From a virus: a stretch of 60,141 nt of DNA. Where the stretch lies: the IMG/VR virus record IMGVR_UViG_3300017767_000010, positions 1 through 60,141 of that record; one strand, written 5' to 3'. Position numbers and translations under genes: made by a program. This document shows positions 2,216 through 57,444 of this stretch, piece after piece. Under the pieces are notes generated by a model. That model was not told the DNA's origin and made no database searches. It was given only the letters and a program-made list of their open reading frames with translations. Position 1 is the first letter of the stretch; the number at the start of each line of letters is the position of its first letter.

Positions 2216-3811
2216 ATGGGAGTACAATTCGGTGGGCCTAAAATAGTAAAGGCCCTTAGTTTTAAAAAAGAAGCCAAAGATGGCCTTATTAAAGGTATTA
2301 AAAAGCTATCGGATGCAGTGTCAGTAACACTTGGTGCATCTGGTAGAACAGTAGTTTTAGAAGATGACTTTGGTAATCCTCACGTAACAAAAGACGGTGT
2401 TACAGTAGCAAGCTACGTAAACCTAGAAGATCCACTGGAAAATCTAGGTGCTACTATGCTAAAGCAAGCCGCAAAACAAACAGCAACAAAAGCAGGCGAC
2501 GGAACAACAACATCTACAGTACTAGCTGAAAACATAATGAAAAGCTACTTTAATTTAAAAGGAGAAGATTTTTCATTTAGAGATATTAAAAGCGGTATAG
2601 ATAAGTTTGTAAAAAAAGTCGTAGAGTTTTTAAATAAAAAAGCATCACCGGTAGATGAAAAGATGTTAAATCATGTATCTACCATTTCTTGTAACAACGA
2701 CAAAGAACTTGGCAACTTTATAGCAGATGCGTTTAAATTAGCAGGTGAAAACGGTGTAGTAACAATGGAAACATCACCGACAAATGAAACCTATATAGAT
2801 TCAATAAACGGTACACATATAAAGTCAATAAGTAAAAGTATACATTTTTATACTAATAGGGAAAAAGAAGTGTCGGAGCTTGAGAAGCCATTAATATTTT
2901 TATGTGCTTCTGATATAGATAATATCCGACGTATTCAACCAATCTTGGAGTTCGCGATCAAGTCCAACCAATCGTTGTTACTCATTGCCCCTTGCGATCA
3001 GCAAATCATTTCAGCATTAGCGATGAATTTCGTAAAGGGCAATATACGTTGCAATGTTATCGATCCACCTTCTTTCGGACTTAAAAGAAAGGATATATTA
3101 GATGACATTGCCCTTTTAACGGGTGCAACTGTTATAGATGAAAATCTAGGTGACTCACTAGATAACATTACATCAGACGTGCTCGGTAATGCATCAAAAG
3201 CTATAATTGATACAGATGGTACAACTGTAGCTATAGATGAGATTCCAGAAGGAGTCAAAGAAAGAGTCGAGTATCTTCAAAAACAATTAGATGAAGAAGA
3301 TCATCATATAATGAGACCACATTTAGAATATAGGCTATCTATATTGAATGGAGGTGTTTCAATGGTTTATGTTGGTGGAGATACTGAAGTGGAAGTATCA
3401 GAAAAAAAAGACAGGGTTGATGATGCAATTCATGCCGTTAGAGCTGCAAAAAAAGAAGGTATACTACCCGGGGGCGGTGTAGCACTAGTAGCAGCAGCAA
3501 ATATGGATTGGGAGTTAACACTTAATCAAGGTGAACTAAAGGGTATTGATATAATGAAAGAAGCACTTTTATCACCATACAATATGATACTAAGCAATGC
3601 AGGATTAAATCCTGAAGATTTTAAAGGTATATCATTTAAAAAAGGTGTTGACGTAATGGATGCAACCGTAAAAGATATGATAAAAGCCGGTATAGTCGAT
3701 CCACTGCTTGTAACTAAATCAGCACTATTAAATGCTGTATCAGTTGCAACTACTATACTTTCAACCGATTGTGTAATTTCAAACGTTAGAGATTATGAAA
3801 GCGATAGGTAA
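2216..3811 (+). CDS. groEL: phage GroEL-type chaperonin, 531 aa
   Basis: A group I chaperonin of nearly normal length. Visible family features are the nucleotide-binding 'TLGASGRTVVLE' (residues 38-49), Asp60 in 'TKDGVTVA', the P-loop-like GDGTTT at 94-99, the 'DDAIHAVRAAKKEGILPGGG' block of the second equatorial half, and the C-terminal 'AGIVDPLLVTKSALLNAVSV' ATP-pocket block. The usual C-terminal GGM repeats are absent. It probably forms an ATP-driven folding ring for phage structural proteins. The groES-like gene overlaps its end by 17 bases. The apical-domain segment at about 2930-3095 has GC-richer codons (ATC, TTC, AAG, CGT) than the rest of the gene. Confidence 0.93.
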   Translation: MGVQFGGPKIVKALSFKKEAKDGLIKGIKKLSDAVSVTLGASGRTVVLEDDFGNPHVTKDGVTVASYVNLEDPLENLGATMLKQAAKQTATKAGDGTTTSTVLAENIMKSYFNLKGEDFSFRDIKSGIDKFVKKVVEFLNKKASPVDEKMLNHVSTISCNNDKELGNFIADAFKLAGENGVVTMETSPTNETYIDSINGTHIKSISKSIHFYTNREKEVSELEKPLIFLCASDIDNIRRIQPILEFAIKSNQSLLLIAPCDQQIISALAMNFVKGNIRCNVIDPPSFGLKRKDILDDIALLTGATVIDENLGDSLDNITSDVLGNASKAIIDTDGTTVAIDEIPEGVKERVEYLQKQLDEEDHHIMRPHLEYRLSILNGGVSMVYVGGDTEVEVSEKKDRVDDAIHAVRAAKKEGILPGGGVALVAAANMDWELTLNQGELKGIDIMKEALLSPYNMILSNAGLNPEDFKGISFKKGVDVMDATVKDMIKAGIVDPLLVTKSALLNAVSVATTILSTDCVISNVRDYESDR

Positions 3812-9595: not shown

Positions 9596-12397
9596 ATGTC
9601 TTTAGGGAAAAAAATATTTCATCAAAATCCAGCAGCAACAGGCGATGTAGATGCAGCGCAAGGGCTAGTTATACATGTGGATGCTAATGATGAGGATAGC
9701 ATTGAAAGCGGAGGTGCTAATACAGGTGCAGGAAGTGGTACTTGGTTTGATATAGCTAACCACAATTTAAATGTACCTTTAGCGGATAAAGCAGATAATT
9801 TACAATTACATCTTAATGCAAGTGATACAACTTCCTATGGGGGTAGTGGCTCAACTTGGACAGATATAAGTGGAAATTCAAGAAACGGTACAATCAATGG
9901 TGGTGTTGAAAGCACTTATACAACAGATCTAAGAGGAAGTTTTGATTTAGTAAAAAACTCCGGAGATTATTTTGAAATTCCACATCATAATGATATTAGT
10001 CCTAGTTCAAACGGGGTAACTTTTGAATCATGGGTAACACCTGATAATATAAACACTACTAACAATATTTTTTATATTGGTAATGATTCAGGTTATGGAG
10101 AATTTTCAGGAGGTACAAATAATGCTACAGCTTTTATTACTACAATGACTTCAAGTGCTTATGTAAATAATGTAGCTACAGGTAATGTTATAACAGCTGG
10201 AAAATTACATCATATTGTTTTTACAATGAGTAATGTAACAAATCCTGTAGTTAATATATATGTTGATGGTACATTATCAGTAACAAACACAGGTTCAGGT
10301 ACAGTAATTGATACCAATGGAAATTTAAAAATAGGTAGATACACAACAGGAAATGCAAATGATTTTGATGGTAAAATACATGCAATAAGAGTTTATAATA
10401 CAGTACTTACAGCATCAGAAGTAGCACAAAACTTTAGAGCAGGTAATTTTTTAAGCTATAGTTCTTTAGTTACTTCTAAAGACCAAGCAAATCCAGGTTC
10501 ATTATATACAAGTAATTTAGCATTTCATTTAGATGCAAATGGTCATTCAGGTACATATTGGACTGATAGTGCTAGTAGTATTAATGGTACAATTAGTGGA
10601 GCAACCTATGTTAACGATAATAATTCAGATTATTTTACTTTTGATGGAAGTAATGACACTGTAACTTTTCCAGCTTCTGATACTTCACCTGTAAATTTTT
10701 CAAGTGAAACTCATACAATAGAATTTTGGGTAAATTTTAATAATTTAGCTGATGATGATGTAATAGTAGGAAAATTTGGTGGTAGCAATACTTTAAAATC
10801 TTTTCAAATACAAGTATCAAATAGTAATAAAATAACAGTATTAGAAAGAGATGGCAGCTCAAATAATACTTTTGAAACTACCGGCACATTTTCAAATGGG
10901 ACTTGGGCACATTTTACATATGTAAGGTCAGCATCTCAAGTAATATTATATATAAATGGTGCATTAGACGCTACACATTCTGCATCAAATGCTATAAATG
11001 CAGGTTCTACTCAAGACATAACAATAGGTAATCAAGCCGGTGCAAGTGTTTATTTTGATGGTAAATTAGCTCAGGTAAGAATTTATAGTTCTACTTTAAA
11101 TTCTTCACAAGTAAAAACTAATTACAATGCTACTAAAGCATTATATCAAAATCCTACTTTGCAAATGAATCTATTAGGTTCAGCATATACAAGTGGTACA
11201 ACTTGGAGTGATTCAGCTAATAGTAATGATGGCACAATATCAAACGGAAGTGCTTCTTTTGATAAAGAACTAGGTAATTTTTTAGTCTTTGACGGCAGTC
11301 CAAGATTAACTGTTCCAATGTTTTCAGCATTATCGACTGCCACCATTTTTTCTATAGAATTATGGTTTAAATCATCCACAGCAACAAGTGATGGAATGAT
11401 AATGAATGTTTATAATGGGGCTGGTACTACTGAAAGTAAATTTAGTTTAAGTTGGAACGGTAATAAATTTAGATGGGTAGTATACGGTGGTTCAAATAAT
11501 GGTTACGATGCGTCCCAGGATTTATTTACTACAAATACCTTTTCAACAAATACTTGGCTTCATGTAGTTGCAACGTATAGCTATGACTCTGAAATGAAAA
11601 TATATGTAAATGGAGTTTTAGAAGGTGCAGAAGGAGATCCTGATCACGGAGTAAGTACAAATTCAAGTACACAAATTAGATGGAGTGATAGAAGTGATGG
11701 ATATGGTGTAGATACACAAATAGGAGAAACTCGTATTTATACTGGTGTACTTACACAAGCACAAGTAGCACAAAACTATTTAGCTAAAAAGAATGATTAT
11801 CCTAATGGATTTAATTTTTCAATTAATAGCGCTACTTTTTCAACAAATTCAAGTCCAGCATACAACTATTTTCGTTCTGATGCTGCTGCTGAAAAACTTA
11901 CATCTGGTACTGTGGATATTGACATAAGTATGGGTATGACTGTTTCCGTATGGTTAAGAAGACACGCTACAACAGGGACATATCAGCAACAGTTTAGAAT
12001 GACAGGAGATGGCTTTACATCTTATTTATTTATGATTGCTGGAAATGGAGATACAAGGTATTTTTATTCCGATGGTACAGGAAATGTAATTAATACAGCA
12101 GCAGGTTTTGGAGATTGGACAACGGATTGGATAAATATAATTCACGTGAGAGAAGCAAATGGAGCAGGTACAACTAACAACAGGGGAGAAATATATTTAA
12201 ACGGAGTTTCTGGACATACACAAACTGATTTAACAGCAGCAACAAATATCACAAGCATTGGGTTTGGAAATAATTTGACTTCAAGTAGAGTTGACAATGT
12301 TGATTCCGGTATGTTAAAACTATTTCAAAGACCATTTTCTGATGCAGAAGCATTAGCTGAATTTAACGCAACAAAAGCAACGTTTGGTATATCATAA
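9596..12397 (+). CDS. LamG-like repeat adhesin/tail fibre, 933 aa
   Basis: After a short N-terminal part with 'IHVDANDEDS', there are about four concanavalin/laminin-G-like units of roughly 200 residues. Each has 'L(H/N)L...TWTD...NDGTI' near its start, 'ESWV' or 'IEFWV' or 'IELWF' in the core, 'H(I/F/V)V.T......IYVDG' and 'IG...........IRVYN..L..SEV.QN(F/Y)' at the end. Such domains bind carbohydrate. Together with the glycine-rich fibre this is probably the host-range determinant, attaching to surface polysaccharide. The copies are diverged from one another. Confidence 0.85.
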   Translation: MSLGKKIFHQNPAATGDVDAAQGLVIHVDANDEDSIESGGANTGAGSGTWFDIANHNLNVPLADKADNLQLHLNASDTTSYGGSGSTWTDISGNSRNGTINGGVESTYTTDLRGSFDLVKNSGDYFEIPHHNDISPSSNGVTFESWVTPDNINTTNNIFYIGNDSGYGEFSGGTNNATAFITTMTSSAYVNNVATGNVITAGKLHHIVFTMSNVTNPVVNIYVDGTLSVTNTGSGTVIDTNGNLKIGRYTTGNANDFDGKIHAIRVYNTVLTASEVAQNFRAGNFLSYSSLVTSKDQANPGSLYTSNLAFHLDANGHSGTYWTDSASSINGTISGATYVNDNNSDYFTFDGSNDTVTFPASDTSPVNFSSETHTIEFWVNFNNLADDDVIVGKFGGSNTLKSFQIQVSNSNKITVLERDGSSNNTFETTGTFSNGTWAHFTYVRSASQVILYINGALDATHSASNAINAGSTQDITIGNQAGASVYFDGKLAQVRIYSSTLNSSQVKTNYNATKALYQNPTLQMNLLGSAYTSGTTWSDSANSNDGTISNGSASFDKELGNFLVFDGSPRLTVPMFSALSTATIFSIELWFKSSTATSDGMIMNVYNGAGTTESKFSLSWNGNKFRWVVYGGSNNGYDASQDLFTTNTFSTNTWLHVVATYSYDSEMKIYVNGVLEGAEGDPDHGVSTNSSTQIRWSDRSDGYGVDTQIGETRIYTGVLTQAQVAQNYLAKKNDYPNGFNFSINSATFSTNSSPAYNYFRSDAAAEKLTSGTVDIDISMGMTVSVWLRRHATTGTYQQQFRMTGDGFTSYLFMIAGNGDTRYFYSDGTGNVINTAAGFGDWTTDWINIIHVREANGAGTTNNRGEIYLNGVSGHTQTDLTAATNITSIGFGNNLTSSRVDNVDSGMLKLFQRPFSDAEALAEFNATKATFGIS

Positions 12398-12414
12398 AAT
12401 TTTAATTAAATAAT

Positions 12415-12825
12415 ATGAAAAAAAAATTTAAAGACACTGCAGTTGGAAAGTTTTTATTAAATAAAATTCCAGCTGTAGTAGGGTCAATAGCTAGCGGTAC
12501 ACCAGCTGGCGGTATCATAGAGGCTATAATAGGTAGTAGTGAGATGTCTCAAGGCGATAAAGAAATTGCTTTGGAAAAACTAAAACTTGAAAGAGCTGAA
12601 ATAGATGGGACAACAGAAAGATGGGTTGCAGATGCAAACTCGGGAGCATGGCTTGCGGCTAATGTTCGTCCTTTAGTATTAATATTTTTAACAGTAAGCT
12701 ATGTAATTGGGTGGTACTTAAGTTATCCACTTGATTCAATAACCGGTTTATTAACAATAGTAATCGGAGGCTATTTCGGATCACGAGGTGTGGAGAAAGT
12801 CTTTGGAAACAAAATGCACAAATAA
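12415..12825 (+). CDS. holin of the 3-TM gene-transfer-release type, 136 aa
   Basis: The segment 'RWVADANSGAWLAANVRPL' (residues 72-90) followed by hydrophobic 'VLIFLTVSYVIGWYL', another membrane stretch 'GLLTIVIGGYFGSRG' and 'VEKVFG' matches the holin family I know as GTA_holin_3TM. The N-terminal third contains an amphipathic or weak membrane segment (KIPAVVGSIASGTPAGG). It would permeabilise the inner membrane at lysis. The endolysin is two genes downstream. Confidence 0.85.
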   Translation: MKKKFKDTAVGKFLLNKIPAVVGSIASGTPAGGIIEAIIGSSEMSQGDKEIALEKLKLERAEIDGTTERWVADANSGAWLAANVRPLVLIFLTVSYVIGWYLSYPLDSITGLLTIVIGGYFGSRGVEKVFGNKMHK

Positions 12826-12826
12826 A

Positions 12827-12976
12827 ATGCAAGACTTAAGAATTTATGGTATAAGTTTAGGTGGATTCACCTTTTCTATAATGCCAGATATAAATCCGCT
12901 GCTACAAACAGTAGTATTAGTATTAACTATAATATATACCATTATAGGTATAAAAAATAAATTAAATCAAAAATAA
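12827..12976 (+). CDS. small membrane protein in lysis cassette, 49 aa
   Basis: ATG 12827 is two bases after the holin stop. 49 residues, with one clear membrane segment (about residues 24-43, 'LLQTVVLVLTIIYTIIGIK') and a weakly hydrophobic N-terminal part. I recall proteins starting 'MQDLRIY...SLGG' beside phage holins. Probably an accessory holin or antiholin; not proven. Confidence 0.65.
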   Translation: MQDLRIYGISLGGFTFSIMPDINPLLQTVVLVLTIIYTIIGIKNKLNQK

Positions 12977-12977
12977 A

Positions 12978-13328
12978 ATGCCTTTAAAATATTTTAATGA
13001 ATCTGAATTTAATGAATTTAAATTGATGAATAAAAAACTTCTTAGTATGTTAGATAACTTGCGAGAAGTATATGGTTCACCATTAAAAATAACATCAAGT
13101 TATAGAAGCCCTGATCATCCAATAGAAGCAAAGAAAAAAGCGCCAGGCGAACACGCATACGGTAATGCTGTTGATATTGCAAGTGTAGGTGGTGAGGCAA
13201 CATTTAAATTAGTTAAAGCTGCTATGGAAGTTGGCTTTACAAGAATAGGTGTAAGTAGAAAAAATAATTTTGTCCATGTAGGTATTGGTTATCCCGATGC
13301 TCCTAAAATAACTCTTTGGACGTATTAA
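12978..13328 (+). CDS. endolysin, M15-type peptidase, 116 aa
   Basis: Compact zinc peptidase of the VanY/M15 group. It has 'ITSSYRSPDHP' (substrate loop), His59 and Asp66 in 'EHAYGNAVDIA', and His100 in 'NFVHVGIGY', which are the three expected zinc ligands. It should cleave D-Ala- or meso-diaminopimelate-linked peptide bonds in peptidoglycan. No signal peptide, so it relies on the holin. 'MPLKYFNESEF' is a common opening for phage M15 lysins. Confidence 0.88.
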   Translation: MPLKYFNESEFNEFKLMNKKLLSMLDNLREVYGSPLKITSSYRSPDHPIEAKKKAPGEHAYGNAVDIASVGGEATFKLVKAAMEVGFTRIGVSRKNNFVHVGIGYPDAPKITLWTY

Positions 13329-13340
13329 ATAAAATTTAAA

Positions 13341-13601
13341 GTGGAACAATTCTTAATTGAATTTATTGTAATTATAGCAATATTTTTTGTGTTAAAAATA
13401 TTTTGGAATGCTAGATTAAAATTCTGGCTAGGTAATTTTGTAATAGGAATGAATGTATTTGCATGCATATTGTATTTATACGGTTTCTATAGTAATGTTA
13501 TGCCTTATGGTGATGCATTTAGTAAAGTACTATTACATTCCGTTGTAGCTATAATTATACATACACTTTTTAGTTTAGATGAAAAAAAGAAAATTAAATG
13601 A
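13341..13601 (+). CDS. membrane protein, 86 aa
   Basis: Starts with GTG 13341 (no ATG close by). About three membrane segments: residues 5-22, 32-50 and 62-78, then a lysine-rich end (DEKKKIK). Its position after holin and endolysin suggests a lysis or superinfection role, but no family is recognised. Its TGA overlaps the next ATG (ATGA). Confidence 0.65.
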   Translation: MEQFLIEFIVIIAIFFVLKIFWNARLKFWLGNFVIGMNVFACILYLYGFYSNVMPYGDAFSKVLLHSVVAIIIHTLFSLDEKKKIK

Positions 13602-13816
13602 AATTAATAAGAAAAATATCAATTGGCCAAGACTATAAAAACGAAGCTATGCATTATTCTGTAGGGCAAGAGGTTTATGGTGGGCATACAATATGTGATA
13701 TATTTGAAAAAGATAATGGCTATCATATATACATAGAAAAAGATAGTAATCAGATACCATGGAAACATTTTAATACAAATATGGCTGTTTCTGTAGAATA
13801 CAATTTAGATTATTAA
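13598..13816 (+). CDS. hypothetical phage protein, 72 aa
   Basis: 72 residues, soluble, with 'GQEVYGGHTICDI' and 'NGYHIYIEKD' giving a beta-rich impression. Overlaps both neighbours (ATGA at 13598; shared base with ATG 13816). Similar small proteins occur between lysis and packaging genes in marine phages by my recollection. Function unknown. Confidence 0.7.
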   Translation: MKLIRKISIGQDYKNEAMHYSVGQEVYGGHTICDIFEKDNGYHIYIEKDSNQIPWKHFNTNMAVSVEYNLDY

Positions 13817-14412
13817 TGAAATCACTTTACAATTATATTATATATACTGATAGCAGATACGACAATAAAAAATACATAGATGGCAAAGAACTAATAATTA
13901 ATTCTGAATTATCTGAAAGAGATTATAAGTTTGTTAATAGAATAGGTACAGTTAAAAGCATACCTATAAATTATAAAACAAGAATAAAACCAGGTGATAA
14001 AGTAATTGTTAATCACAATGTATTTAGAAGATGGATTGATGTTAGGGGTAAAGAAAAAAATTCATCATCATATATTGATGAAAATATTTATTCCGTTAGT
14101 CCAGAACAAGTGTATGCATACAAAAATAATGGTGAATGGAAATGTCCTGACAAATATTGTTTTGTTAAACCATTACCACAAGATTTTAAATGGAGTCTTT
14201 TAAAAGAAAAAGAATTAGTTGGTGAGCTTGTATATAATAATAAGCTTTTAAGTTCGTTAAACGTGTCCGTAGGCGATATAGTGGGCTTTACACCAGATTC
14301 CGAATATGAGTTTAATATTGAGGATCAAAAATTATATAGAATTTTATCACATCATATAACAATCAACTATGGACGTAAAAAAAACAAGAGAGAGACTACT
14401 CAAAGCTGCTGA
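13816..14412 (+). CDS. putative tandem GroES-fold protein, 198 aa
   Basis: Two consecutive segments follow the GroES order. First: 'YIIYTD', then 'RIGTVKSIPINYKTRIKPGD' with 'KVIVNHNVF' and a final strand 'SVSPEQVYAY'. Second: 'KYCFVKPLPQ', then 'LVGELVYN', 'LNVSVGDIVGF' and the final 'LYRILSHHITI'. In GroES the matching parts are RVLVK, GEVLAVG, VKVGDIVIF and LIMSESDILAI. No zinc or enzymatic motif is visible. It could be a co-chaperonin variant or a capsid-assembly factor; it overlaps the gene before terminase. Structural inference from pattern only. Confidence 0.6.
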   Translation: MKSLYNYIIYTDSRYDNKKYIDGKELIINSELSERDYKFVNRIGTVKSIPINYKTRIKPGDKVIVNHNVFRRWIDVRGKEKNSSSYIDENIYSVSPEQVYAYKNNGEWKCPDKYCFVKPLPQDFKWSLLKEKELVGELVYNNKLLSSLNVSVGDIVGFTPDSEYEFNIEDQKLYRILSHHITINYGRKKNKRETTQSC

Positions 14413-14626
14413 AAACTCTATAGAAGAGTTAATAAAAGTTATGAATAAAAAAATGGATCCAGAAGAATTAGATCCTGAAAAAGTAAAAATATCAGCATCA
14501 GCCTATAGATTAGCTATGGAAGACGCTATAGCTATGATGGCTAAAGTAGAAGAACTTAACAGTGTAGGAAAAGAAGACAACCCTAAAAAACAAGAATTCT
14601 TCGGTGTAGAAGATCGTATTAAATAA
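14369..14626 (+). CDS. possible small terminase subunit, 85 aa
   Basis: 85 residues, helical and charged, overlapping the upstream gene by 44 bases and sharing one base with the terminase start. The opening 'TRERLLKAAENSIEELIKVM' resembles helix-turn-helix starts of small terminases, and 'SASAYRLAMEDAIAMMAKVEEL' could be an oligomerisation helix. It is short for TerS (usually 120-180 residues). The call rests mainly on position directly before TerL. Confidence 0.5.
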   Translation: MDVKKTRERLLKAAENSIEELIKVMNKKMDPEELDPEKVKISASAYRLAMEDAIAMMAKVEELNSVGKEDNPKKQEFFGVEDRIK

Positions 14627-16866
14627 TGTATAATCAAACCTTATATAAGATACACACCGAACATTTATCATCTAAATTAGTTAAAAATAATAATAGATAT
14701 AAAAAATTCGAGTACGGTTATAATAAAGATTTAGATTGTGTTGTTATAAGTAAAGACGGTACAATAGGTGAAATATATGAAATACAAGGATTAAAAATTG
14801 CACTTCCTTTAATACCTAAAGAAATTAATGGTAAAGAATTAAAAAAAGAAGATCAAGTATTTATTCAAACACCTAAACCAGCTACACTTAAAAAAATAAA
14901 AAGTATATATAATTTTAAGTCGTATAATGAGGATATAAAAGAAAAGTATTATGAATATATTAACAAGGAGTTTGATTTTCGTTCTGATGGTTACTGGTTC
15001 ATGTGCAACGGTGAGCCATGTTACCTCACCGGCTCCCATTATATATACCTCAATTGGACAAAGATCGATGTGGGTTCACCCGATTTTAGACACGCAAACA
15101 GATTATTTTTTTATTTCTGGGAGGCGTGCAAGGCGGATTATAGGTGTTATGGAATGTGCTACCTCAAGAACAGACGGTCTGGTTTCTCCTTTATGGCGAG
15201 TTCGGAAGTTGTCAACGTGGCAACTGTTACCAGAGATGCAAGATTTGGGATACTTTCAAAGACTGGAGGAGACGCGAAGAAGATGTTCACGGATAAGGTT
15301 GTCCCAATTTCCACGAACTACCCATTCTTTTTTAAACCAATACAGGATGGCATGGAGAGGCCAAAGACAGAATTATCGTATAAGGTACCATCGAGAAGGC
15401 TCACAAGAAAGACGATACAAGCAACCACCTCAACCACCGAAGAGAGTGATCAAATGGGACTTGACACCACCATCGACTGGAAGAATACAGGTGACAATTC
15501 CTACGACGGGGAGAAACTACAGATCCTCGTCCATGATGAATCGGGCAAGTGGGAGAAGCCGGACAACATTCTCAATAACTGGAGGGTCACAAAGACGTGT
15601 CTCCGTCTCGGTTCGAAGATAGTTGGTAAATGTATGATGGGATCTACATCTAATGCGTTAGACAAAGGTGGTAGTAATTTTAAAAAAATTTATAATGACT
15701 CAGATCTCACAAAGAAAAAAAGAAATCGCAATGGGCAGACTGCTAGTGGATTATATGCTTTGTTCATTCCTATGGAATGGAACTTCGAAGGATTCATTAA
15801 CAAATTTGGTTTTCCTGTCTTCGACACTCCGGAAACTCCGGCTGAAGGAATTGACAGGGAGCTTATCTACAACGGAGTTATCGATCATTGGGAGAATGAA
15901 GCAGATGGGCTCAAAGATAATGCCGATGCTTTAAACGAATATTATAGACAGTTTCCTAGAACTGAAAAACATGCATTTAGAGATGAAACAAAAGAATCAA
16001 TATTTAATTTATCAAGGATATATGAACAGATAGATTTTAATGAAGAAATGGTTGCATCAGGATATGTAACAAGAGGTTCTTTTCAATGGAAGAATGGTGT
16101 TAAAAATACTAAAGTACAATTTTATCCTAATCCTGAAGGAAAATTTAGAATATCTTGGATTCTTCCAACGGATATGCAGAATAATATAGAAATTAAAAAT
16201 GGAATTAAATATCCAGGTAATAAAGCTTATGGTGCTTTTGGTTGTGATAGCTACGATATAAGTGGAACAACAGATGGTGGCGGTTCAAATGGATCGCTAC
16301 ACGGATTAACAAGTTTTTCGTTATCACCAGATGTTCCTAAGTCACAATTTTTTTTAGAATATATTGCAAGACCACAAACAGCTGAAATGTTTTTTGAAGA
16401 TGTATTAATGGCTATTATATTTTATGGTATGCCAATACTTGCAGAAAATAATAAGCCTAGATTATTATATCATTTAAAAAGAAGAGGTTATAGAGGATTC
16501 TCTATGAATCGACCAGATAAAGCTAGAAATAAATTATCTGTAACAGAAAAAGAATTAGGTGGAATTCCTAATACATCAGAAGATATAAAACAAGCACATG
16601 CGTCTGCTATAGAATCCTATATAGAAAACAATGTAGGCATAACAGATGAAGAACATGGTAGAATGTATTTTCAAAGAACACTTGAAGATTGGTCTAAGTT
16701 TAATATTAACAATAGAACAAAGTTTGATGCTTCAATAAGTAGTGGTTTAGCTATAATGGCTTGCCAAAGACATTTATATGCTCCAAGAGCAGAAAGACAA
16801 ACAAGAAAGATAGATTTTGGATTTTCTAAATATAATAATTCAGGATTAAAAAGTAAAATATTATAA
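14626..16866 (+). CDS. terL: terminase large subunit, 746 aa
   Basis: DNA-packaging ATPase/nuclease. An unusual Walker A-like loop 'KNRRSGFSFMASSE' starts at residue 181: the Lys-Ser pair of GKS is replaced by Phe-Ser, with Arg183/Arg184 possibly supplying the charge. Walker B 'ILVHDE' is at 300-305 (Asp304, Glu305) and the coupling motif 'GSTSNA' at 339-344. The nuclease domain begins near 540 with 'FGCDSYDISG' and continues to 'SISSGLAIMACQ'. Codons 120-331 (about 14985-15620) and about 380-433 are markedly GC-richer than flanking codons, and a second frame is open for 223 codons there. It acts with the portal at the procapsid vertex. Confidence 0.93.
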   Translation: MYNQTLYKIHTEHLSSKLVKNNNRYKKFEYGYNKDLDCVVISKDGTIGEIYEIQGLKIALPLIPKEINGKELKKEDQVFIQTPKPATLKKIKSIYNFKSYNEDIKEKYYEYINKEFDFRSDGYWFMCNGEPCYLTGSHYIYLNWTKIDVGSPDFRHANRLFFYFWEACKADYRCYGMCYLKNRRSGFSFMASSEVVNVATVTRDARFGILSKTGGDAKKMFTDKVVPISTNYPFFFKPIQDGMERPKTELSYKVPSRRLTRKTIQATTSTTEESDQMGLDTTIDWKNTGDNSYDGEKLQILVHDESGKWEKPDNILNNWRVTKTCLRLGSKIVGKCMMGSTSNALDKGGSNFKKIYNDSDLTKKKRNRNGQTASGLYALFIPMEWNFEGFINKFGFPVFDTPETPAEGIDRELIYNGVIDHWENEADGLKDNADALNEYYRQFPRTEKHAFRDETKESIFNLSRIYEQIDFNEEMVASGYVTRGSFQWKNGVKNTKVQFYPNPEGKFRISWILPTDMQNNIEIKNGIKYPGNKAYGAFGCDSYDISGTTDGGGSNGSLHGLTSFSLSPDVPKSQFFLEYIARPQTAEMFFEDVLMAIIFYGMPILAENNKPRLLYHLKRRGYRGFSMNRPDKARNKLSVTEKELGGIPNTSEDIKQAHASAIESYIENNVGITDEEHGRMYFQRTLEDWSKFNINNRTKFDASISSGLAIMACQRHLYAPRAERQTRKIDFGFSKYNNSGLKSKIL

Positions 16867-16868
16867 TA

Positions 16869-17987
16869 ATGGCAGAAGCTACAGGATATACAACTCAATT
16901 TCCCAGCCAATCGGTTGATGACGCTACAAAAAATAGCGAAAAATACGGAATGGAAGTGGCAAGAGGTATAAAAAATGAGTGGTTTAGAAAGAGTGCCGGT
17001 ACAGGTAGATTCCTTCAAAACCAACGAGAATTCCATAGACTAAAATTATATGCTAGAGGTGAACAATCAACACAAAAATATAAAGATGAATTTTCTATAA
17101 ATGGTGATTTATCTTATTTAAATCTTGATTGGAAACCCGTACCTATAATTCCAAAATTTGTTGATATAGTTGTAAATGGTATGCAAGATAGATTGTTTAC
17201 AATTAAAACATTTGCACAAGATCCTTCGTCTACAAAGAAAAGAACTGATTTTGTAGAAATGATGCAGGAGGACATGAATACAAAAGATTTTATAGAGAAT
17301 ATAGATCAACAACTAGGTATTAATGTACAAAATTTTAAAAATAAAGAAATACCTGATTCAGATGAAGAATTAGAGCTTCATATGCAGCTTAATTATAAAC
17401 AAACTATTGAGCTTGCTCATGAACAAGCTATTGATAATGTATTTAAAAGAAATAATTATTATGAACTTAAAAAACGTTTAGATTATGACCAAACTGTCTT
17501 GGGTATATCTTGCGCTAAGCATACTTTTAATAATACTGATGGTATTAAACTCGAATACGTAGATCCAGCTAATTTAGTATATTCATATACAGAAGATCCA
17601 AATTTTCAAGATGTATATTACTTTGGAGAAATAAAACAAATAAAATCTAACGAACTTAAAAAACAATTTCCTGGATTATCAGATGAAGAATTTGAAGATT
17701 GTATAAAAAAATCTGGTAAAACTAATCAATACGATTATACTAATAATGATTCTGAAGATTCATATGATTCTAATACATTAACAGTATTATATTTTAATTG
17801 GAAATCTTGGGAAAAAAGTGTTTTTAAAATAAAAGAAACATCTTCTGGCGCTAAAAAAGCAATTAAAAAAGACGATAATTTTAATCCGCCTAAAGATCAA
17901 AGAACAAGATTTGAAAGAGTAGCACAAGCAAGAGAAGTTATATATGAGGGTGTTATGGTTTTAGGTGCTAATAAACTTTTAAAATAG
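16869..17987 (+). CDS. portal protein, N-terminal part up to in-frame TAG, 372 aa
   Basis: First part of the portal (head-tail connector ring). Visible are a long helical N-terminal domain, 'RLKLYARGEQSTQKYKDEF', 'DIVVNGMQDRLFTI' and 'YDQTVLGISCAKHTFNNTDG'. It stops at TAG 17985-17987 after 'VLGANKLLK'. The downstream frame 18003-19229 is in the same phase, separated only by TAG and five codons (E K A Q N), and continues the same protein family. Read together they would give about 786 residues. My recollection of relatives is Trp at the TAG position (TGG to TAG is one base), which I cannot check here. Confidence 0.82.
   Translation: MAEATGYTTQFPSQSVDDATKNSEKYGMEVARGIKNEWFRKSAGTGRFLQNQREFHRLKLYARGEQSTQKYKDEFSINGDLSYLNLDWKPVPIIPKFVDIVVNGMQDRLFTIKTFAQDPSSTKKRTDFVEMMQEDMNTKDFIENIDQQLGINVQNFKNKEIPDSDEELELHMQLNYKQTIELAHEQAIDNVFKRNNYYELKKRLDYDQTVLGISCAKHTFNNTDGIKLEYVDPANLVYSYTEDPNFQDVYYFGEIKQIKSNELKKQFPGLSDEEFEDCIKKSGKTNQYDYTNNDSEDSYDSNTLTVLYFNWKSWEKSVFKIKETSSGAKKAIKKDDNFNPPKDQRTRFERVAQAREVIYEGVMVLGANKLLK
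17985..17987 (+). other. in-frame amber (TAG) codon interrupting the portal gene
   Basis: The portal frame started at 16869 reaches TAG at codon 373 and continues open from GAA 17988 to 19229. The downstream bases are GAAAAAGCACAAAATATGG, with ATG at 18003. Neither visible tRNA has a CTA anticodon, and TAG is used as an ordinary terminator elsewhere, including a tandem TAGTAG at the end of the primase-helicase gene. Readthrough, re-initiation, a null mutation in the sampled population, or a consensus error are all possible. Confidence 0.9.
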
Positions 17988-18002
17988 GAAAAAGCACAAA
18001 AT

Positions 18003-19229
18003 ATGGTTCGTCCTGATTCTAACGTGAATACTGTTATGATGAATTATATTGTTAGCTCACCTAGATTTTACAAAGGTAAAATTGAAAGCTTAGTTAGCAG
18101 GATGGTTACTTATGCTGATCTTATTCAACTAACACATTTAAAATTACAACAAGTAATACAAAGAATGACACCTTCCGGTGTATTTGTAGATGCAGACGGG
18201 TTATCTGAAATAGATTTAGGTAATGGTACAAATTATAATCCACAAGAAGCATTAAATTTATATTTTCAAACAGGATCTATTATTGGGCGTTCTATGACTG
18301 TGGATGGTGATATGAATCCTGGTAAAGTACCTATTCAAGAATTACCAGGTGGTGGTGGTCAACAATCTACACTTTTAATTCAATCATATAATTATTATTT
18401 AAATATGATAAGAGATGTGACCGGGTTAAATGAAGCTAGAGATGGTTCTGATCCAGATCCTCATGCTTTAGTTGGTGTACAAAAACTAGCAGCTGCTAAT
18501 TCAAACACAGCTACAAGGCATATATTAAATAGTTCTATGTATATAACAAGTGAACTTGCGGAGGCTATTTCTATAAGAATAAAAGATGTACTTACGTATC
18601 ATCCTCAAAGAGATGTGTTTATTAAAAGTTTAGGTAGATTTACTGTGGGAGCATTGAAAGAATTAGAAAATGTACATATGCATGATTTTGGTGTATTTAT
18701 TGAATTAGATCCTGATGAAGATGAAAAACAATTAGTTGAAAATAATATACAAGCTGCTTTATCAAGAGACCAAATACAACTAGAAGATGTAATAGATATT
18801 AGAGCAATTAAAAATATTAAATTAGCTAATCAACTATTAAAATTTAGAAGAGTAAAAAAAGCTACATTTGATCAAATAAAAGCAGAAAGAAATATTGCTG
18901 CTCAATCAGAAGCTAATGCAAAAGCGGCTCAGGCCGCTGAGATGGCAAAGGCACAATCTGAAAATATGAAAGTGCAAGCTAAAGTAAAACTTAGTGAAGC
19001 ACAGAAAAATTTTGATATTCAAAAACTTCAAAGTGAAGCTAGTGCTAAAAAAGAACTTATGCAATTTGAGTTTGATTTGAATATGAAATTAAAAAGAATG
19101 GAATTAGATTCAAAAGAAAAAGTAGAACTTAGTAAACCTATTAGAAGTGCAAAGCCTAATAAAGCATTTGAGTCTAAAGGTAATGACGTTCTAGGGGGGT
19201 TAGATCTTTCAAGATTTGAACCTAAATAA
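18003..19229 (+). CDS. portal protein, C-terminal part, 408 aa
   Basis: Continues the portal frame from ATG 18003, 15 bases after the internal TAG. It holds the conserved core: 'MIRDVTGLNEARDGSDPDPHALVG' (in pieces), 'KLAAANSNTATRHIL' and the C-terminal Ala/Gln/Lys-rich coiled-coil barrel, ending 'NDVLGGLDLSRFEPK'. If translation restarts here the portal would be two chains; if the TAG is suppressed it is one. The sequence is otherwise intact with no further lesions, which argues against an old pseudogene. Confidence 0.82.
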   Translation: MVRPDSNVNTVMMNYIVSSPRFYKGKIESLVSRMVTYADLIQLTHLKLQQVIQRMTPSGVFVDADGLSEIDLGNGTNYNPQEALNLYFQTGSIIGRSMTVDGDMNPGKVPIQELPGGGGQQSTLLIQSYNYYLNMIRDVTGLNEARDGSDPDPHALVGVQKLAAANSNTATRHILNSSMYITSELAEAISIRIKDVLTYHPQRDVFIKSLGRFTVGALKELENVHMHDFGVFIELDPDEDEKQLVENNIQAALSRDQIQLEDVIDIRAIKNIKLANQLLKFRRVKKATFDQIKAERNIAAQSEANAKAAQAAEMAKAQSENMKVQAKVKLSEAQKNFDIQKLQSEASAKKELMQFEFDLNMKLKRMELDSKEKVELSKPIRSAKPNKAFESKGNDVLGGLDLSRFEPK

Positions 19230-20554: not shown

Positions 20555-22003
20555 ATGAGTCTTACAACTGGAATAGAACATTTGACACCTTCGCCTAGCA
20601 AAGGCCAATTGTTCCAAGGTAATTATATTACCAATTTTGATTTTACAAACCAGTTCTTACCTGACGTTTATGAAAAGCAAGCTGAAATTTATGGAAACAG
20701 ATCTATTGGTGGTTTCTTAAAATTAGTATCTGCAGAGATGCCTTCAGCTTCCGATGAAATAAGATGGGTAGAACAAGGAAGATTACATATAGCTTACAAA
20801 AACGTAGCTATTTCAACTGTTACGTTTACAGTAACTTTTGATACATTACCTGACGGCACATCAGCCGGTACCGCACAAGTACCTGCTGTTAGAGTAGGCC
20901 AAACCATTATGGTTCAAGGTCTTACATCAGGTGGAGCTCATACGGGCCCTGTACAAAAAGGTGTTGTAACTGTAGCTGGTGCAAATGCAAACAGTACAAC
21001 AGGTACATTCCAAGCTAAATGTTTAGAAGCTGCTAACTGGAATGCTGTTACAGGCGCAGCTAGTTTTAGTAAAGCTACTGTATTAGTATATGGTTCTGAA
21101 TTTGCAAAAGGTTCTGCTGGAATGACAGGAGAAGTTGATGCAGTATATCAGTCTTATACTAATAAGCCTATGATATTAAAAGACAACTATGCTATTAATG
21201 GTTCTGATACTGCACAAATAGGATGGATTGAAGTTACTTCTGAAAACGGAGCTTCAGGATATTTATGGTATTTACAATCTGAACACGAAACTCGTCAAAG
21301 ATTTGAAGATTACTTAGAAATGTCTATGATTGAATCTGTTAAGAAAGATAGTAATTCAGCATTATCCGCTTCAGAATCACCAGGGGGTACAGAAGGTTTA
21401 TTTGCTGCATTAAGCGGTAGAGGAAATGTTTACACAGATCTTGCTGCTGATTTATCTGCATCTGGTCTTCCAATGACCGGCTTTGATACTATATTAAAGC
21501 AATTAGATAAAAACGGAGCTATTGAAGAAAACATGCTTTATATCAATAAGACATTATCTTTAGCTATTGACGACGCACTTGCTGCCAAAAACTCTTACGG
21601 TACTGGCGGTACTTCTTATGGTGTATTTAACAATAGTGAAGATATGGCATTAAACTTAGGTTTTTCAGGATTTAGAAGAGGTGGATATGACTTCTATAAA
21701 ACTGACTGGAAATATTTAAATGACTTTGGAACAAGAGGTCAATTTGGAGATATTGAAGGTGTATTAATTCCTGCTGGAACTTCTACAGTTTACGATCAAG
21801 AATTAGGTCAAAATATTAAAAGACCATTCTTGCACGTAAGATATAGAGCTTCAGAAGCTGATGATAGAAAAATGAAAACTTGGATTACAGGTTCTGTAGG
21901 TGGTGCTTATACTACTACTACAGATGAAATGCGAGTTTCATTCTTATCTGAAAGATGTTTAATAACGCAAGGAGCTAATAACTTCTTCTTATTGAAAAAC
22001 TAA
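20555..22003 (+). CDS. major capsid protein, 482 aa
   Basis: Called by position (after scaffold, before connectors), length and features of an HK97-fold capsid: an N-terminal helical part 'FDFTNQFLPDVYEKQAEIYG', a beta-rich insertion at about 90-200, a 'HETRQRFEDYLEMSMIESVKK' spine-type helix, and the end 'FLSERCLITQGANNFFLLKN'. Codons and composition are regular, and the start context AAAAATTTATAAAAAATG is strongly A/T-rich, as in highly expressed Bacteroidetes genes. A hairpin terminator follows directly. The length and order recall capsid proteins of crAss-like and related phages. Confidence 0.87.
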   Translation: MSLTTGIEHLTPSPSKGQLFQGNYITNFDFTNQFLPDVYEKQAEIYGNRSIGGFLKLVSAEMPSASDEIRWVEQGRLHIAYKNVAISTVTFTVTFDTLPDGTSAGTAQVPAVRVGQTIMVQGLTSGGAHTGPVQKGVVTVAGANANSTTGTFQAKCLEAANWNAVTGAASFSKATVLVYGSEFAKGSAGMTGEVDAVYQSYTNKPMILKDNYAINGSDTAQIGWIEVTSENGASGYLWYLQSEHETRQRFEDYLEMSMIESVKKDSNSALSASESPGGTEGLFAALSGRGNVYTDLAADLSASGLPMTGFDTILKQLDKNGAIEENMLYINKTLSLAIDDALAAKNSYGTGGTSYGVFNNSEDMALNLGFSGFRRGGYDFYKTDWKYLNDFGTRGQFGDIEGVLIPAGTSTVYDQELGQNIKRPFLHVRYRASEADDRKMKTWITGSVGGAYTTTTDEMRVSFLSERCLITQGANNFFLLKN

Positions 22004-24520: not shown

Positions 24521-26344
24521 ATGGCACAAAGTAAAAGAACTTTTAATAAAGCTAAACTTGAAAGAGATTTAGATGATAGAATAGTTCCTCAAGGTACCTA
24601 TAGAGATGCTTTAAATATAAGTATAGATACTTCAGAAGATGCAAATGTTGGAGTAATAGAAAATATGAAAGGTAATGAGCTTATTTCTAATCAAAGTATA
24701 TTAGGGTTAAGTTCATCAACAAATCCAAATGCAAAAGTAATTGGTAGTTATTCTCATCCAGAAGAAAATAAAATTTATTATTTTGTTACAGGAGACAACA
24801 CAGATGGTATTTTTGAATATGATATTACAAATAATGCAATTAATACGTTATTATTAGATTCAACAAAACCTATTGTTTCTCAAAAAGTAACATTTACATT
24901 TACAATGGCCGGTGTAACTGGTAGTATATCTCAAAATGGTGTAATTAATCTTTTAGCCGGCAAAGGGTCCGCTGTTGCAGTAACACCAAGATTTCCCGCA
25001 AATACTTCAGGATCTACAAAATCAGTAAAAATACCAGTAAAAGTAAGAGTACCAAGAGGTTATGCAAACTATAAATCTTCTGGTGCATATGTAACAGGAT
25101 CTATAACGGCATCTCAAGTTTCATTAACAGCCCCAACACCAACAACAGCATCCGCTACTAATGTTTCACTAACTACAGCTACCCTAAATGGAGAACTAGA
25201 CAACGACGATGTTAACGTAACTAGTCAAGGTTTCTTTTTTGGATATAAGTCAGCAAGTAATACAGCTTTAACTGTTTCTGAATTAACAAGTGGAGGAAGC
25301 GGGATAGTTAGAAGTACAGTAACATCAACAGGTGTTAATAATGATTTTAATAAAGATGTAACTGGAATACCTAATAGTAAATTAGTTAGTTTTGTAGCAA
25401 TTGCAACTAATAGTGTTGGACAAGGTGTTGCAACAAATGTTCTTACATTTACAACATCGGCAGCCCCTGTAGCCCCTGCGGCAAATAGACCATATGCAAA
25501 CAGATTATATATTCATCCTGTTGTAGGGCCCGATTTAGGTACTGGTATTACTACTAATGACTCTAAGCAAATAGGATATGGTAATATTATAAAATCAGAT
25601 AATAGAATTTATTTTACAGTCTTTGGTTTTAATGCTTCAACAGGGCTATATACAGATCAAGCTGTTATAATGGATAATACACCAGCTACTGGTGGTGTTG
25701 ACGATAGAATTCAAGTAACAGCAAACGCTTCTGGTCCTGCTACATTAACATTATCAAATAGTAATTCTTTTGCAATTAGTAGTGGAGATATTAGATTTAG
25801 CGGCTTTAATTCTGCTGCTTTAGGTTCTCAAACAGCTGGTATGTATACAATTACAGCAACAGGGCTAGCGGGTGGTACTGTAGCAAACTTTACACCTGCT
25901 ACATTACAAGTTAAAATTGGTTCCCCTAGTGCTACAACTTTTACATCAACAATACAACCCGCTTTTGCTAAAACAGGCACAGGCACAACACCATTTTTAT
26001 CACAATCTGGATCTGGAGATTATGCTTATAATGAAGGAGGGTCAAGAACATCCTTTTCAAATATAGGAATAGGGCCTATGGAATCTGGTAATAAAGGCAT
26101 AGCTATTATACCTTTTTCAAATACAACAGGTACCTTTGATACTTTTTCTGGTTTTGATGCTACAAAAGTTGCAGTTTCTATATCAGGTAAAACAGCAGGA
26201 ACTGATTATGATTATTATATTTTTGATACATGTCCTGTTATATATGGTACTACTCCTGGTATAATGATCGAAGCAGATCCTAACGTTTTAAATGATGGAA
26301 CAACTTCAGTTACACATACAGTAACTATAACTTATAATTATTAA
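24521..26344 (+). CDS. tail stabilisation protein, first segment with FN3-like domain, 607 aa
   Basis: Begins 'RTFNKAKLERDLDDRIVPQG' and 'TYRDALNISIDTSEDANVGV', then 'SHPEENKIYYFVTGDN'. This is the opening of the large podovirus tail (stabilisation) protein family. Residues about 205-310 are a fibronectin-like sandwich with 'VTSQGFFFGYKS' and 'SFVAIATNSVGQG', a style common in Bacteroidetes proteins. The rest (330-607) is Thr/Ser-rich beta sequence. The family's next part is in the genes at 26602 and 30795, so the protein is split here into separate chains. Confidence 0.75.
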   Translation: MAQSKRTFNKAKLERDLDDRIVPQGTYRDALNISIDTSEDANVGVIENMKGNELISNQSILGLSSSTNPNAKVIGSYSHPEENKIYYFVTGDNTDGIFEYDITNNAINTLLLDSTKPIVSQKVTFTFTMAGVTGSISQNGVINLLAGKGSAVAVTPRFPANTSGSTKSVKIPVKVRVPRGYANYKSSGAYVTGSITASQVSLTAPTPTTASATNVSLTTATLNGELDNDDVNVTSQGFFFGYKSASNTALTVSELTSGGSGIVRSTVTSTGVNNDFNKDVTGIPNSKLVSFVAIATNSVGQGVATNVLTFTTSAAPVAPAANRPYANRLYIHPVVGPDLGTGITTNDSKQIGYGNIIKSDNRIYFTVFGFNASTGLYTDQAVIMDNTPATGGVDDRIQVTANASGPATLTLSNSNSFAISSGDIRFSGFNSAALGSQTAGMYTITATGLAGGTVANFTPATLQVKIGSPSATTFTSTIQPAFAKTGTGTTPFLSQSGSGDYAYNEGGSRTSFSNIGIGPMESGNKGIAIIPFSNTTGTFDTFSGFDATKVAVSISGKTAGTDYDYYIFDTCPVIYGTTPGIMIEADPNVLNDGTTSVTHTVTITYNY

Positions 26345-54871: not shown

Positions 54872-55603
54872 CTATTTTTCTAAAAATTTTTCAATTATTT
54901 CTTTTACTTCAATTTGTTTTAATTTTTGCAAAGCTTTAGCTTTTGTTTTCTTAATCCATACAATTGATTTGTTATATTTTTCAGCTATTCTAGCTAAACT
55001 TACTTTTCTATCGAATGGTTCATCTATACCATAAAACATGCATATAATATCTTTTTCAAAAGGTGTTAAAAATATATTCATAACATCATTTAAATGTTCA
55101 TTTAATCTATCATTATTATAATTTGATATTTGATCAACTACATCCATATAATGCGCATTGAAAAATGATGCAAATGTTCTAGTTAAGAATATATCCATTT
55201 GATAGTTTAAATCATATTTACCTTCATATGCAGCTCCGTGAGGCTTTAACTTATAATATGCCTCAGGAATCCTAATAGTATCTCTATCGTGAGCTATGGC
55301 TCGTTTAATGCCGTTTTTAATATTAATTTTAATATAATTAATTATAATACCAGTTTGTTCTTCTTCTGGTGCTGCATTAATCATATTCCAATCAAGTTTT
55401 AACCAAGCTCTATAAAAACAATAATAGCCTTCCTGTAATAAATCATTTAAATCTAATATACCTATCCTGTTCCATGACCTTTCAAATGAATTAGCCAAAC
55501 TTCTTGGCCATTGTATATAAGGCATATGGTCGGGGTCTATTAGCTTACCGCTGTCTATTTCTTTTAAATGAAATTTATATGTTGGGTGGCTATACCACTT
55601 CAT
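54872..55603 (-). CDS. sigma70-like transcription factor, 243 aa
   Basis: Region-2-like part 'ILDLNDLLQEGYYCFYRAWL' and 'IIINYIKINIKNGIKRAI', then a charged linker, and a region-4-like helix-turn-helix 'LTPFEKDIICMFYGIDEP' and 'KVSLARIAEKYNKSIVWIKK' followed by 'TKAKALQKLKQ'. This spacing is that of short alternative sigma factors. It would direct host RNA polymerase to phage promoters, probably late ones. Ends TAG at 54872-54874. Start overlaps the upstream tiny gene (ATGA). Confidence 0.8.
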   Translation of the reverse strand: MKWYSHPTYKFHLKEIDSGKLIDPDHMPYIQWPRSLANSFERSWNRIGILDLNDLLQEGYYCFYRAWLKLDWNMINAAPEEEQTGIIINYIKINIKNGIKRAIAHDRDTIRIPEAYYKLKPHGAAYEGKYDLNYQMDIFLTRTFASFFNAHYMDVVDQISNYNNDRLNEHLNDVMNIFLTPFEKDIICMFYGIDEPFDRKVSLARIAEKYNKSIVWIKKTKAKALQKLKQIEVKEIIEKFLEK

Positions 55604-56093: not shown

Positions 56094-56335
56094 TATTTAT
56101 ATTTTTGATACATTACAAATACAATAACCTTAAGCATAGTACCTGCCATAACACCAACAGCTATTGTTAATTTTATTTGAACAATTGACGCAATCATAAA
56201 AATTGTTACAGCATCAAATGCAAACATTATAGGCATAAGCATTACTAATCCTTGTTTAAGTTTAAGTGTATCGCCTAGCAAAGCTACTACATATGCCGAT
56301 AATGCAAATAGAAAAGCAATAGAAAAACTACTCAT
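56093..56335 (-). CDS. small membrane protein, 80 aa
   Basis: About three membrane segments (residues 3-21, 29-50, 53-76). I start at the ATG overlapping the DNA ligase stop (ATGAGTAG), not at an ATG 22 codons upstream inside the ligase gene. No family recognised; it may be a phage membrane or exclusion protein. Confidence 0.65.
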   Translation of the reverse strand: MSSFSIAFLFALSAYVVALLGDTLKLKQGLVMLMPIMFAFDAVTIFMIASIVQIKLTIAVGVMAGTMLKVIVFVMYQKYK

Positions 56336-57164
56336 AGTTTCTAATTGTTTTAGCTCTTGGAAATCTGTAAGCTCCGGCTGGAGTTCTTTCAAAGAATTCA
56401 AATGTTAATAGCTTACCGATATATTCTTTTCTTGCTTGCCACATTTGTTTTCTGTTTTCAATAGTTAGTGTAGGCCAAGGTATTTCAACTTCTCTACCGT
56501 CTTTATCAAGAGCTAGCCACTTACCAAGACCTTTAGCAAACTTGCCTTTACCTTCAACATAACCTGTAATAGTTGCTTCAGTATCCGACCAGTCTTTTAC
56601 TTTTTGTAGTGTGTAACTTCGTTTTTGTTCATATAAGCTATTTGTTCTAAGCATTGAGCCTTCGTAGCCGTTTGCTTTGTTTTGTTTGTGGTATTTGTTT
56701 AGTTTATCATCATTACAAACTACTTTAGTATCAACTTCATGAGTGAACTTAAGTTTATATTTGCTTTTAAGATTTGTAATAGCAAGTGTACGATCAATAA
56801 ATTTTAGATAACTAGAAAATAAGTCGTAGCAATGGAACTGTAAATAACTTGCTGACTCAAATTTATCAGCTTGTGTTGGCTTTTGCTTTTTAACAAGTGA
56901 TATAATTTTATTAAAATTATTTTTAAACTTATGATTGTAAAGCTCACCATCGAGGATAAGAAAAGGATTATCAGCAAAAAGTGGTTTAAGCTCAGTTAGT
57001 ATATGTTTACAATTGTGGAATTGCTTACCGTTTCTACTATGAGCTCCGTAGCGTGTAATAATGCATCGTACACCGTCGAGCTTTGGCTGAATAAAATGTG
57101 TTTCATCTTGCCAGTTGATTGTTTTAGATACTGGATGAGCCAGCATTGGTTTAAAGTTTGTCAT
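56328..57164 (-). CDS. ATP-dependent DNA ligase, 278 aa
   Basis: Seals nicks in replication and repair. Start at ATG 57164 (MTNFKPMLAHP), overlapping the upstream gene by 14 bases. Motif I Lys28 in 'QPKLDGVRC', motif III 'LILDGELYNH' (Glu74), motif IV 'YEGSMLR' (Glu168), motif V 'LQKVKDW' (187-192), followed by a small OB-type domain 'VEGKGKFAKGLGKWLAL'. Compact like T7 ligase and other phage ligases. Ends with TAG. Confidence 0.92.
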   Translation of the reverse strand: MTNFKPMLAHPVSKTINWQDETHFIQPKLDGVRCIITRYGAHSRNGKQFHNCKHILTELKPLFADNPFLILDGELYNHKFKNNFNKIISLVKKQKPTQADKFESASYLQFHCYDLFSSYLKFIDRTLAITNLKSKYKLKFTHEVDTKVVCNDDKLNKYHKQNKANGYEGSMLRTNSLYEQKRSYTLQKVKDWSDTEATITGYVEGKGKFAKGLGKWLALDKDGREVEIPWPTLTIENRKQMWQARKEYIGKLLTFEFFERTPAGAYRFPRAKTIRNYE

Positions 57165-57444
57165 ATTCTTTTTTAATTCTGTCATATATTTCATTTAATT
57201 CTATTACTAATTCGTATTTTTCATCAGCTAATAACTTAGCTCTTTTAATATCTAAATCTATTAATTGAGCTTTTAGCATATCTTTTTTAGTAGGATGTTT
57301 AATATTACCAAACCCATCTGTTTCAGCCTCAAAGAATTCTTTAGGTGTCATAGGTTTAAAGTCTTGTTGTATTCTAGCATCAAAAGCTAATAATATTTTA
57401 TCAGCTACTAATTGTGATAGTTTTTCTAAATCTTCAGGAGTCAT
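57151..57444 (-). CDS. hypothetical helical protein, 97 aa
   Basis: 97 residues, charged and helical: 'LEKLSQLVADKILLAFDARI' and 'QLIDLDIKRAKLLADEKYEL', with 'FEAETDGFGNIKHPTKKDML' between. Its start overlaps the upstream gene stop and its stop lies in the ligase start, so it is translated with ligase. No family recognised. Confidence 0.7.
   Translation of the reverse strand: MTPEDLEKLSQLVADKILLAFDARIQQDFKPMTPKEFFEAETDGFGNIKHPTKKDMLKAQLIDLDIKRAKLLADEKYELVIELNEIYDRIKKEYDKL

Follow-up and report, generated by a model that had tools for sequence, protein, structure and literature searches.

Analysis of the IMG/VR virus record IMGVR_UViG_3300017767_000010 pointed to a private nonsense change in the gene for the portal protein. 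The whole record, from a marine phage, is 60,141 bases long and constitutes the window analysed here. A single G-to-A change would have converted an invariant tryptophan codon, TGG, into TAG within an ordinary standard-code portal gene, and the TAG would have no decoding function. Judged from the consensus sequence, the TAG is probably (about 87%) such a private nonsense change, arising either as a consensus error or in a defective variant.

The portal frame opens at ATG 16869, runs for 372 codons to the TAG at 17985-17987 (codon 373), and continues for 413 codons to a TAA at 19227-19229, giving 786 positions in total. The first ATG 3' of the TAG lies at 18003, five codons on. The codon count thus confirmed what the first-pass annotation had described, a frame open on both sides of one in-frame TAG with five codons before the next ATG. 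Random codons of the same base composition would be expected to hold about 64 stops per 786 positions, and the portal frame has one internal stop; it is therefore one gene with one interruption, beyond what a chance overlap of frames would give. The features concerned are as follows.

16869..19229, plus strand: portal gene of 786 codons including the internal TAG, with a TAA terminator; matched to phrog_6547 by both halves, with a predicted fold like the portals of phicrAss001, Pan3 and P22
17985..17987, plus strand: in-frame TAG at codon 373; TGG (Trp) in every relative examined
16869..17987, plus strand: N-terminal portal fragment under table 11, 372 aa; from reading frame and profile match
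18003..19229, plus strand: C-terminal portal fragment if translation restarts at the next ATG, 408 aa; from reading frame and profile match
14626..16866, plus strand: terminase large subunit (TerL), uninterrupted; phrog_6681
20555..22003, plus strand: virion structural protein, probable major capsid protein (MCP), uninterrupted; phrog_13704 "virion structural protein", with the MCP function suggested by gene order

The gene at 20555..22003 had a match free of internal stops in 9 of the 11 records searched.

The assignment of the gene as a portal by the first-pass annotation was right, as both halves matched a single PHROG portal profile (phrog_6547) and the fused model had a portal fold. The N-terminal half matched residues 5-391 (1.8e-66) and the C-terminal half residues 404-780 (1.8e-61) of the 827 in the profile, which are consecutive stretches. 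With the TAG read as Trp, the fused model had a mean pLDDT of 71.7. Its best Foldseek matches were the portal chains of phicrAss001 (7qoi, 2.1e-22), with a VIA Z of 27.8 over 485 residues and an rmsd of 7.8, and a second structure aligner returned the portals of Pan3, GP4, phicrAss001 and P22 with Z from 24.5 to 28.6. The fused protein is thus predicted to fold like the phicrAss001 and P22-type portals, and W373 falls within a predicted beta-strand (369-375) in a block with pLDDT of about 75. A sequence search of the PDB gave no match for TerL and only weak, unrelated matches for the C-terminal portal half. In tblastn searches with each half, 87 of 50,697 phage records matched, 83 of which were Flavobacterium or Cellulophaga phages; all of the matches listed (40 of the 87 per half) were below 60% identity, the best of them showing 41-51% in each half. 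Three phage records that were examined carry a single annotated portal CDS between the terminase and a structural or hypothetical gene. A GroES-like gene adjoins the terminase in two isolate relatives, and the window itself encodes a GroEL-like chaperonin at 2216-3811 (phrog_5725, PF00118).

Codon 373 was TGG in all 250 related rows and in all 187 distinct 600-bp contexts, and none of the 250 rows had a stop there. This count omits the window itself (L001) and takes in some contigs more than once through overlapping pieces, which explains the smaller number of distinct contexts. An earlier count over the portal searches had given TGG in 146 of 146; those searches covered the best 80 of 468 and the best 80 of 83 matches, and records nearest to the window's own may be absent by design, so that a sibling sharing the TAG could have been missed. 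Among bacterial and archaeal genome assemblies, 33 of 36 portal loci reached codon 373, and all 33 had TGG. The portal relatives L325-L360 lie in metagenome bins labelled Woesearchaeota, Aliivibrio, Maricaulis and others, labels that probably reflect binning contamination rather than hosts. When the viral contig collection was scanned with a pattern accepting either base, one other contig was found, the sibling L307, and it carried TGG. Alignment of the fused portal to its homologues, a check proposed with the original observation, showed W373 to be invariant in 81 sequences (the window's TAG entered as W), and the relatives run in frame across this position, so the tryptophan named in the first-pass annotation was correct. 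By these sequence comparisons, the TAG appears private to the window record among the relatives examined.

The closest comparison was given by L307 (contig 3300017760_002727), which covers 13439-18154 and is 99.8% identical to the window, with 10 differences in 4,716 bp. Polarised by the relatives, 8 of the 10 changes fell on the window branch: one intergenic (13753), five synonymous (14337, 15381, 15465, 15768 and 16203; the base at 15381 is also present in one relative), one missense (16105, TerL D494N) and one nonsense (17986). The two remaining changes (13509 and 13771) fell on the branch of the sibling. Five of the seven window-branch coding changes near the TAG were therefore synonymous (P 0.011 for random errors, with 24% synonymous assumed). 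This indicates that errors are not widespread in the consensus and that the lineage is apparently under ordinary purifying selection, against which the TAG stands out as unselected.

The TerL change D494N was found only in the window, with D in all 201 related rows. Like the portal nonsense change, it lies at an otherwise invariant site and is G to A on the plus strand. The two together would look like unselected damage, error or very recent mutation, two events being too few for a test. Loss of TerL catalysis through D494N was not indicated by motif, residue 494 being distinct from D541 and D701, the putative nuclease aspartates, which are both invariant in alignment A2. Among the relatives, 19 of the 77 portal rows and 24 of the 125 TerL rows had at least one private change at an otherwise invariant site; rows below 90% gene coverage or 65% identity were left out of this count, so that siblings are absent from it. 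Portal A397S was listed there as found only in the window, yet L307 has the same base. The window had no private change of this kind in its MCP, RNR or gp22073.

Lone stops, and stretches that are chimeric or recombinant, also occur in sibling contigs of the same population. The contig L306 shares its metagenome identifier with L307; within 7.7 kb it holds a private TAA, which stands at codon 65 of gp24521 (window position 24714), where the window has TCA. Its bases 1-125 (window 18030-18154, starting about 43 bases beyond the TAG site) match four contigs of a different phage (L061, L062, L063 and L070) at 100% identity, after which L306 switches to the sequence of the window; the switch is likely a chimeric join or a recombination point. 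The lone TAA and the foreign 125 bases together indicate a mixed source population, with recombination or troubled assembly near the TAG site in at least one sample. The TAG itself was not borrowed from the phage sharing this chimeric end, as all four contigs carry TGG. A further sibling, L308, is 99.7% identical over 12360-17224 and strongly different over 9634-11053, within the gene for a lectin/laminin-G-like protein (9596-12397), as expected of a fast-changing receptor-binding gene.

The background rate of such stops was estimated from relatives of eight genes, in which 6 in-frame stops, 3 of them clear, were found in 371,041 aligned codons. Duplicate rows were merged for this count (227 to 154 for the portal), and stretches below 45% identity or shorter than 60 residues were left out. 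The clear cases were codon 628 of the portal in L033, codon 718 of TerL in L180 (29 codons from the end) and codon 65 of gp24521 in L306; of the others, one lay at the natural C-terminus (codon 784 in L223) and two (L023 and L049) in apparently frame-shifted stretches. At this rate the 43 larger ORFs of the window, 17,275 codons in all, would be expected to hold 0.14 to 0.28 lone stops, and the probability of finding one or more is 0.13 to 0.24. Since lone stops also occur in relatives at this rate, one per 60-kb record is unremarkable.

The absence of the TAG from all relatives examined, the apparent use of TAG as a terminator elsewhere in the genome (described below) and the ordinary rate of lone stops together argue for a private, unselected nonsense change. 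Of the three options raised by the first-pass annotation, namely amber suppression, a two-chain portal, and a mutant or consensus error, it is the last that was supported, with TGG in all 250 rows including the 99.8% identical sibling. Two origins would account for the change, and from the sequences compared we rank a consensus error first (roughly 50%), through sequencing, amplification damage or mixed-strain assembly. Second would come a real loss-of-function mutation (roughly 37%), in which the phage copy would be dead or kept by complementation in co-infected cells. The synonymous-rich window branch is no less compatible with a true mutation than with an error. Which origin applies is our judgement, and under the preferred reading the change would presumably not be heritable in a free-living phage.

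Readthrough of a genuine TAG, by a suppressor tRNA of host or phage or by leaky termination, would give a full-length portal and possibly tie assembly to the host; we regard it as very unlikely. It would agree with the portal frame being open and conserved after the TAG. Recoding of the genome was examined by comparing the window with 452 ORFs of at least 90 aa from 27 related loci, of which 359 matched. Within the genes that have close relatives among these loci, the stop at 17985 was the sole one to interrupt large relatives in mid-gene (8 ORFs), which bears out, within the reach of the relatives, the remark that everything else is intact. Each of eighteen other stop positions was hit by 1 to 3 ORFs; apart from one stop at residue 18 of a 600-aa ORF, near its start, these were short ORFs of 91-233 aa, presumably shadow frames. 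No frame split was reported in this comparison. Scans of viral contigs with gp34604 and gp26602 found no relative, and weaker relatives of the two were present in 7 and 19 of the collected related loci, respectively.

Against readthrough, one mid-gene TAG was found in the window by this comparison, while TAG ends other genes at or near the TAA or TGA of their orthologues. TAG ended 12 of 75 mechanically chosen ORFs, the portal included; of the 11 others, 10 lie on the minus strand. Relatives aligned to within 15 residues of the C-terminal end were available for 7 of these 11, between 7 and 63 for each. Most of them have their TAA, TAG or TGA no more than 8 codons from the stop used in the window; for the ORF at 54872-55603, 3 of 36 relatives ended 23 codons later. 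Several of these TAG ends have another stop within 5 codons and are of little weight; the informative cases are 54872-55603 and 56328-57194, the only two of the seven that readthrough would extend by at least 20 codons (by 100 and 21, respectively). The comparison suggests that TAG also serves as a terminator for other genes of the window, at the ends of 11 further ORFs, 10 of which are minus-strand ORFs lying outside the late block. The plus-strand block has no other TAG end apart from 642-1037, for which there is no relative, so recoding limited to late genes was judged mainly by the absence of further TAGs.

A tRNA with a CTA anticodon, for which a genome-wide search had been proposed, was found neither in the window nor in 34 related loci, many of which are partial or overlapping. 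The window has tRNAs for Gly (TCC) and Met (CAT) only, and the same two were present in one of the related loci, the only one with tRNAs. Genome-wide recoding of TAG thus gained no support from the genes compared, and no phage-encoded amber suppressor was found in these loci. The tRNA search covered phage DNA, and a suppressor could come from the host; moreover, TAG-recoding phages can be without a detectable suppressor, 375 of 715 phages predicted to use table 15 encoding one according to PMC11210395. In the recoding crAss-like phages described in PMC7886860, TAG is reassigned mostly in late genes, often with suppressor tRNAs, and one genome reported there shows incipient recoding with TAGs arising in conserved genes. 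Many bacterial readthrough stops are argued in PMC7918605 to be short-lived, which makes non-conservation weaker counter-evidence than it appears; stops common to at least two species were used in that work to cut artefacts. Still, the TAG was seen in none of the 250 rows, the 99.8% identical sibling included, and with TAG apparently an ordinary terminator elsewhere and no CTA tRNA found, amber suppression as first proposed was not supported. A genuine TAG with the portal made only in hosts that misread UAG, so that assembly would be conditional on a host suppressor, is a case we would hardly expect to apply. If it did, a first step to stop-codon recoding would have been caught in a marine Bacteroidota phage; more generally, a real TAG that is read through would be a one-codon start of a code change in a marine phage.

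Termination at 17985 followed by a restart at ATG 18003 would give a portal of two chains (1-372 and 379-786), which is highly improbable. In a scoring of upstream context, the A-rich 25 bases before 18003 obtained -0.72. The 42 mechanically chosen starts of the window averaged 1.56 (sd 3.72) under leave-one-out, with 10 of them at or below the value for 18003. A score as high was reached by 40 of 258 internal ATGs and, among the relatives, by 2 of 149 distinct contexts at 18003 (mean of the relatives -5.45). A looser first scoring (74 starts, no leave-one-out) had given 1.05 for 18003 and a mean of 3.24 for the starts, and 8.0% of 301 internal ATGs reached the 18003 value. The score at 18003 lies between real starts and internal ATGs, which makes the upstream context ambiguous; the unbroken sibling scores -2.02 at the same place, so most of the context predates the stop. 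A restart would also omit residues 373-378, including the invariant W373 and N378, and the cut would fall inside the predicted beta-strand 369-375. The Met at 18003 is internal in the relatives (ATG in 247 of 250 rows), and none of the 250 rows has a stop at codon 373. Homologues beginning as separate proteins at this Met, which the first-pass annotation had named as the sign of a true split, were not seen among the 250 in-frame rows or the three phage records, which annotate one CDS; the two-chain portal was accordingly not sustained.

Least probable is that the record is a decaying relic tolerating loss of its portal, for although the neighbouring TerL has a second private change at an invariant site (D494N), such changes are common in the rows counted above and absent from the MCP, RNR and gp22073 of the window, no other mid-gene stop was found relative to the relatives, the window-branch changes are mostly synonymous, and the length of 60.1 kb is near that of the listed Elemovirus records (59.7-61.1 kb), with Panino longer at 77 kb.

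The preferred reading, a private nonsense change, carries a caution for phages derived from metagenomes. Where an essential gene holds one isolated in-frame stop, near-identical siblings and the background frequency of such stops should be consulted before recoding or a split gene is put forward.

Compared with known systems, the window is most like the phages that carry the phrog_6547 portal (Elemovirus of Flavobacterium, Maribacter phage Panino and podovirus MW202828), with which it shares the order TerL, portal, structural genes and the length class. The three relatives examined have one uninterrupted portal gene with TGG, whereas the window has TAG at the same position. With the table-15 crAss-like phages that recode TAG, as described in PMC7886860, it has in common that an essential late gene contains an in-frame TAG; these phages reassign TAG across their late genes, whereas the window has one TAG, no CTA tRNA and other genes that TAG apparently terminates. 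Portal function in P22 is reported in PMC9320234 to need conserved wing Trp residues, one of which W373 might match. The laboratory P22 gene 1 amber mutants of that report also have a single nonsense codon in the portal gene, and in both cases rescue would need suppression or complementation. The P22 amber is a laboratory mutant, whereas the window is an environmental record with no suppressor known, in which the base itself is possibly an error.
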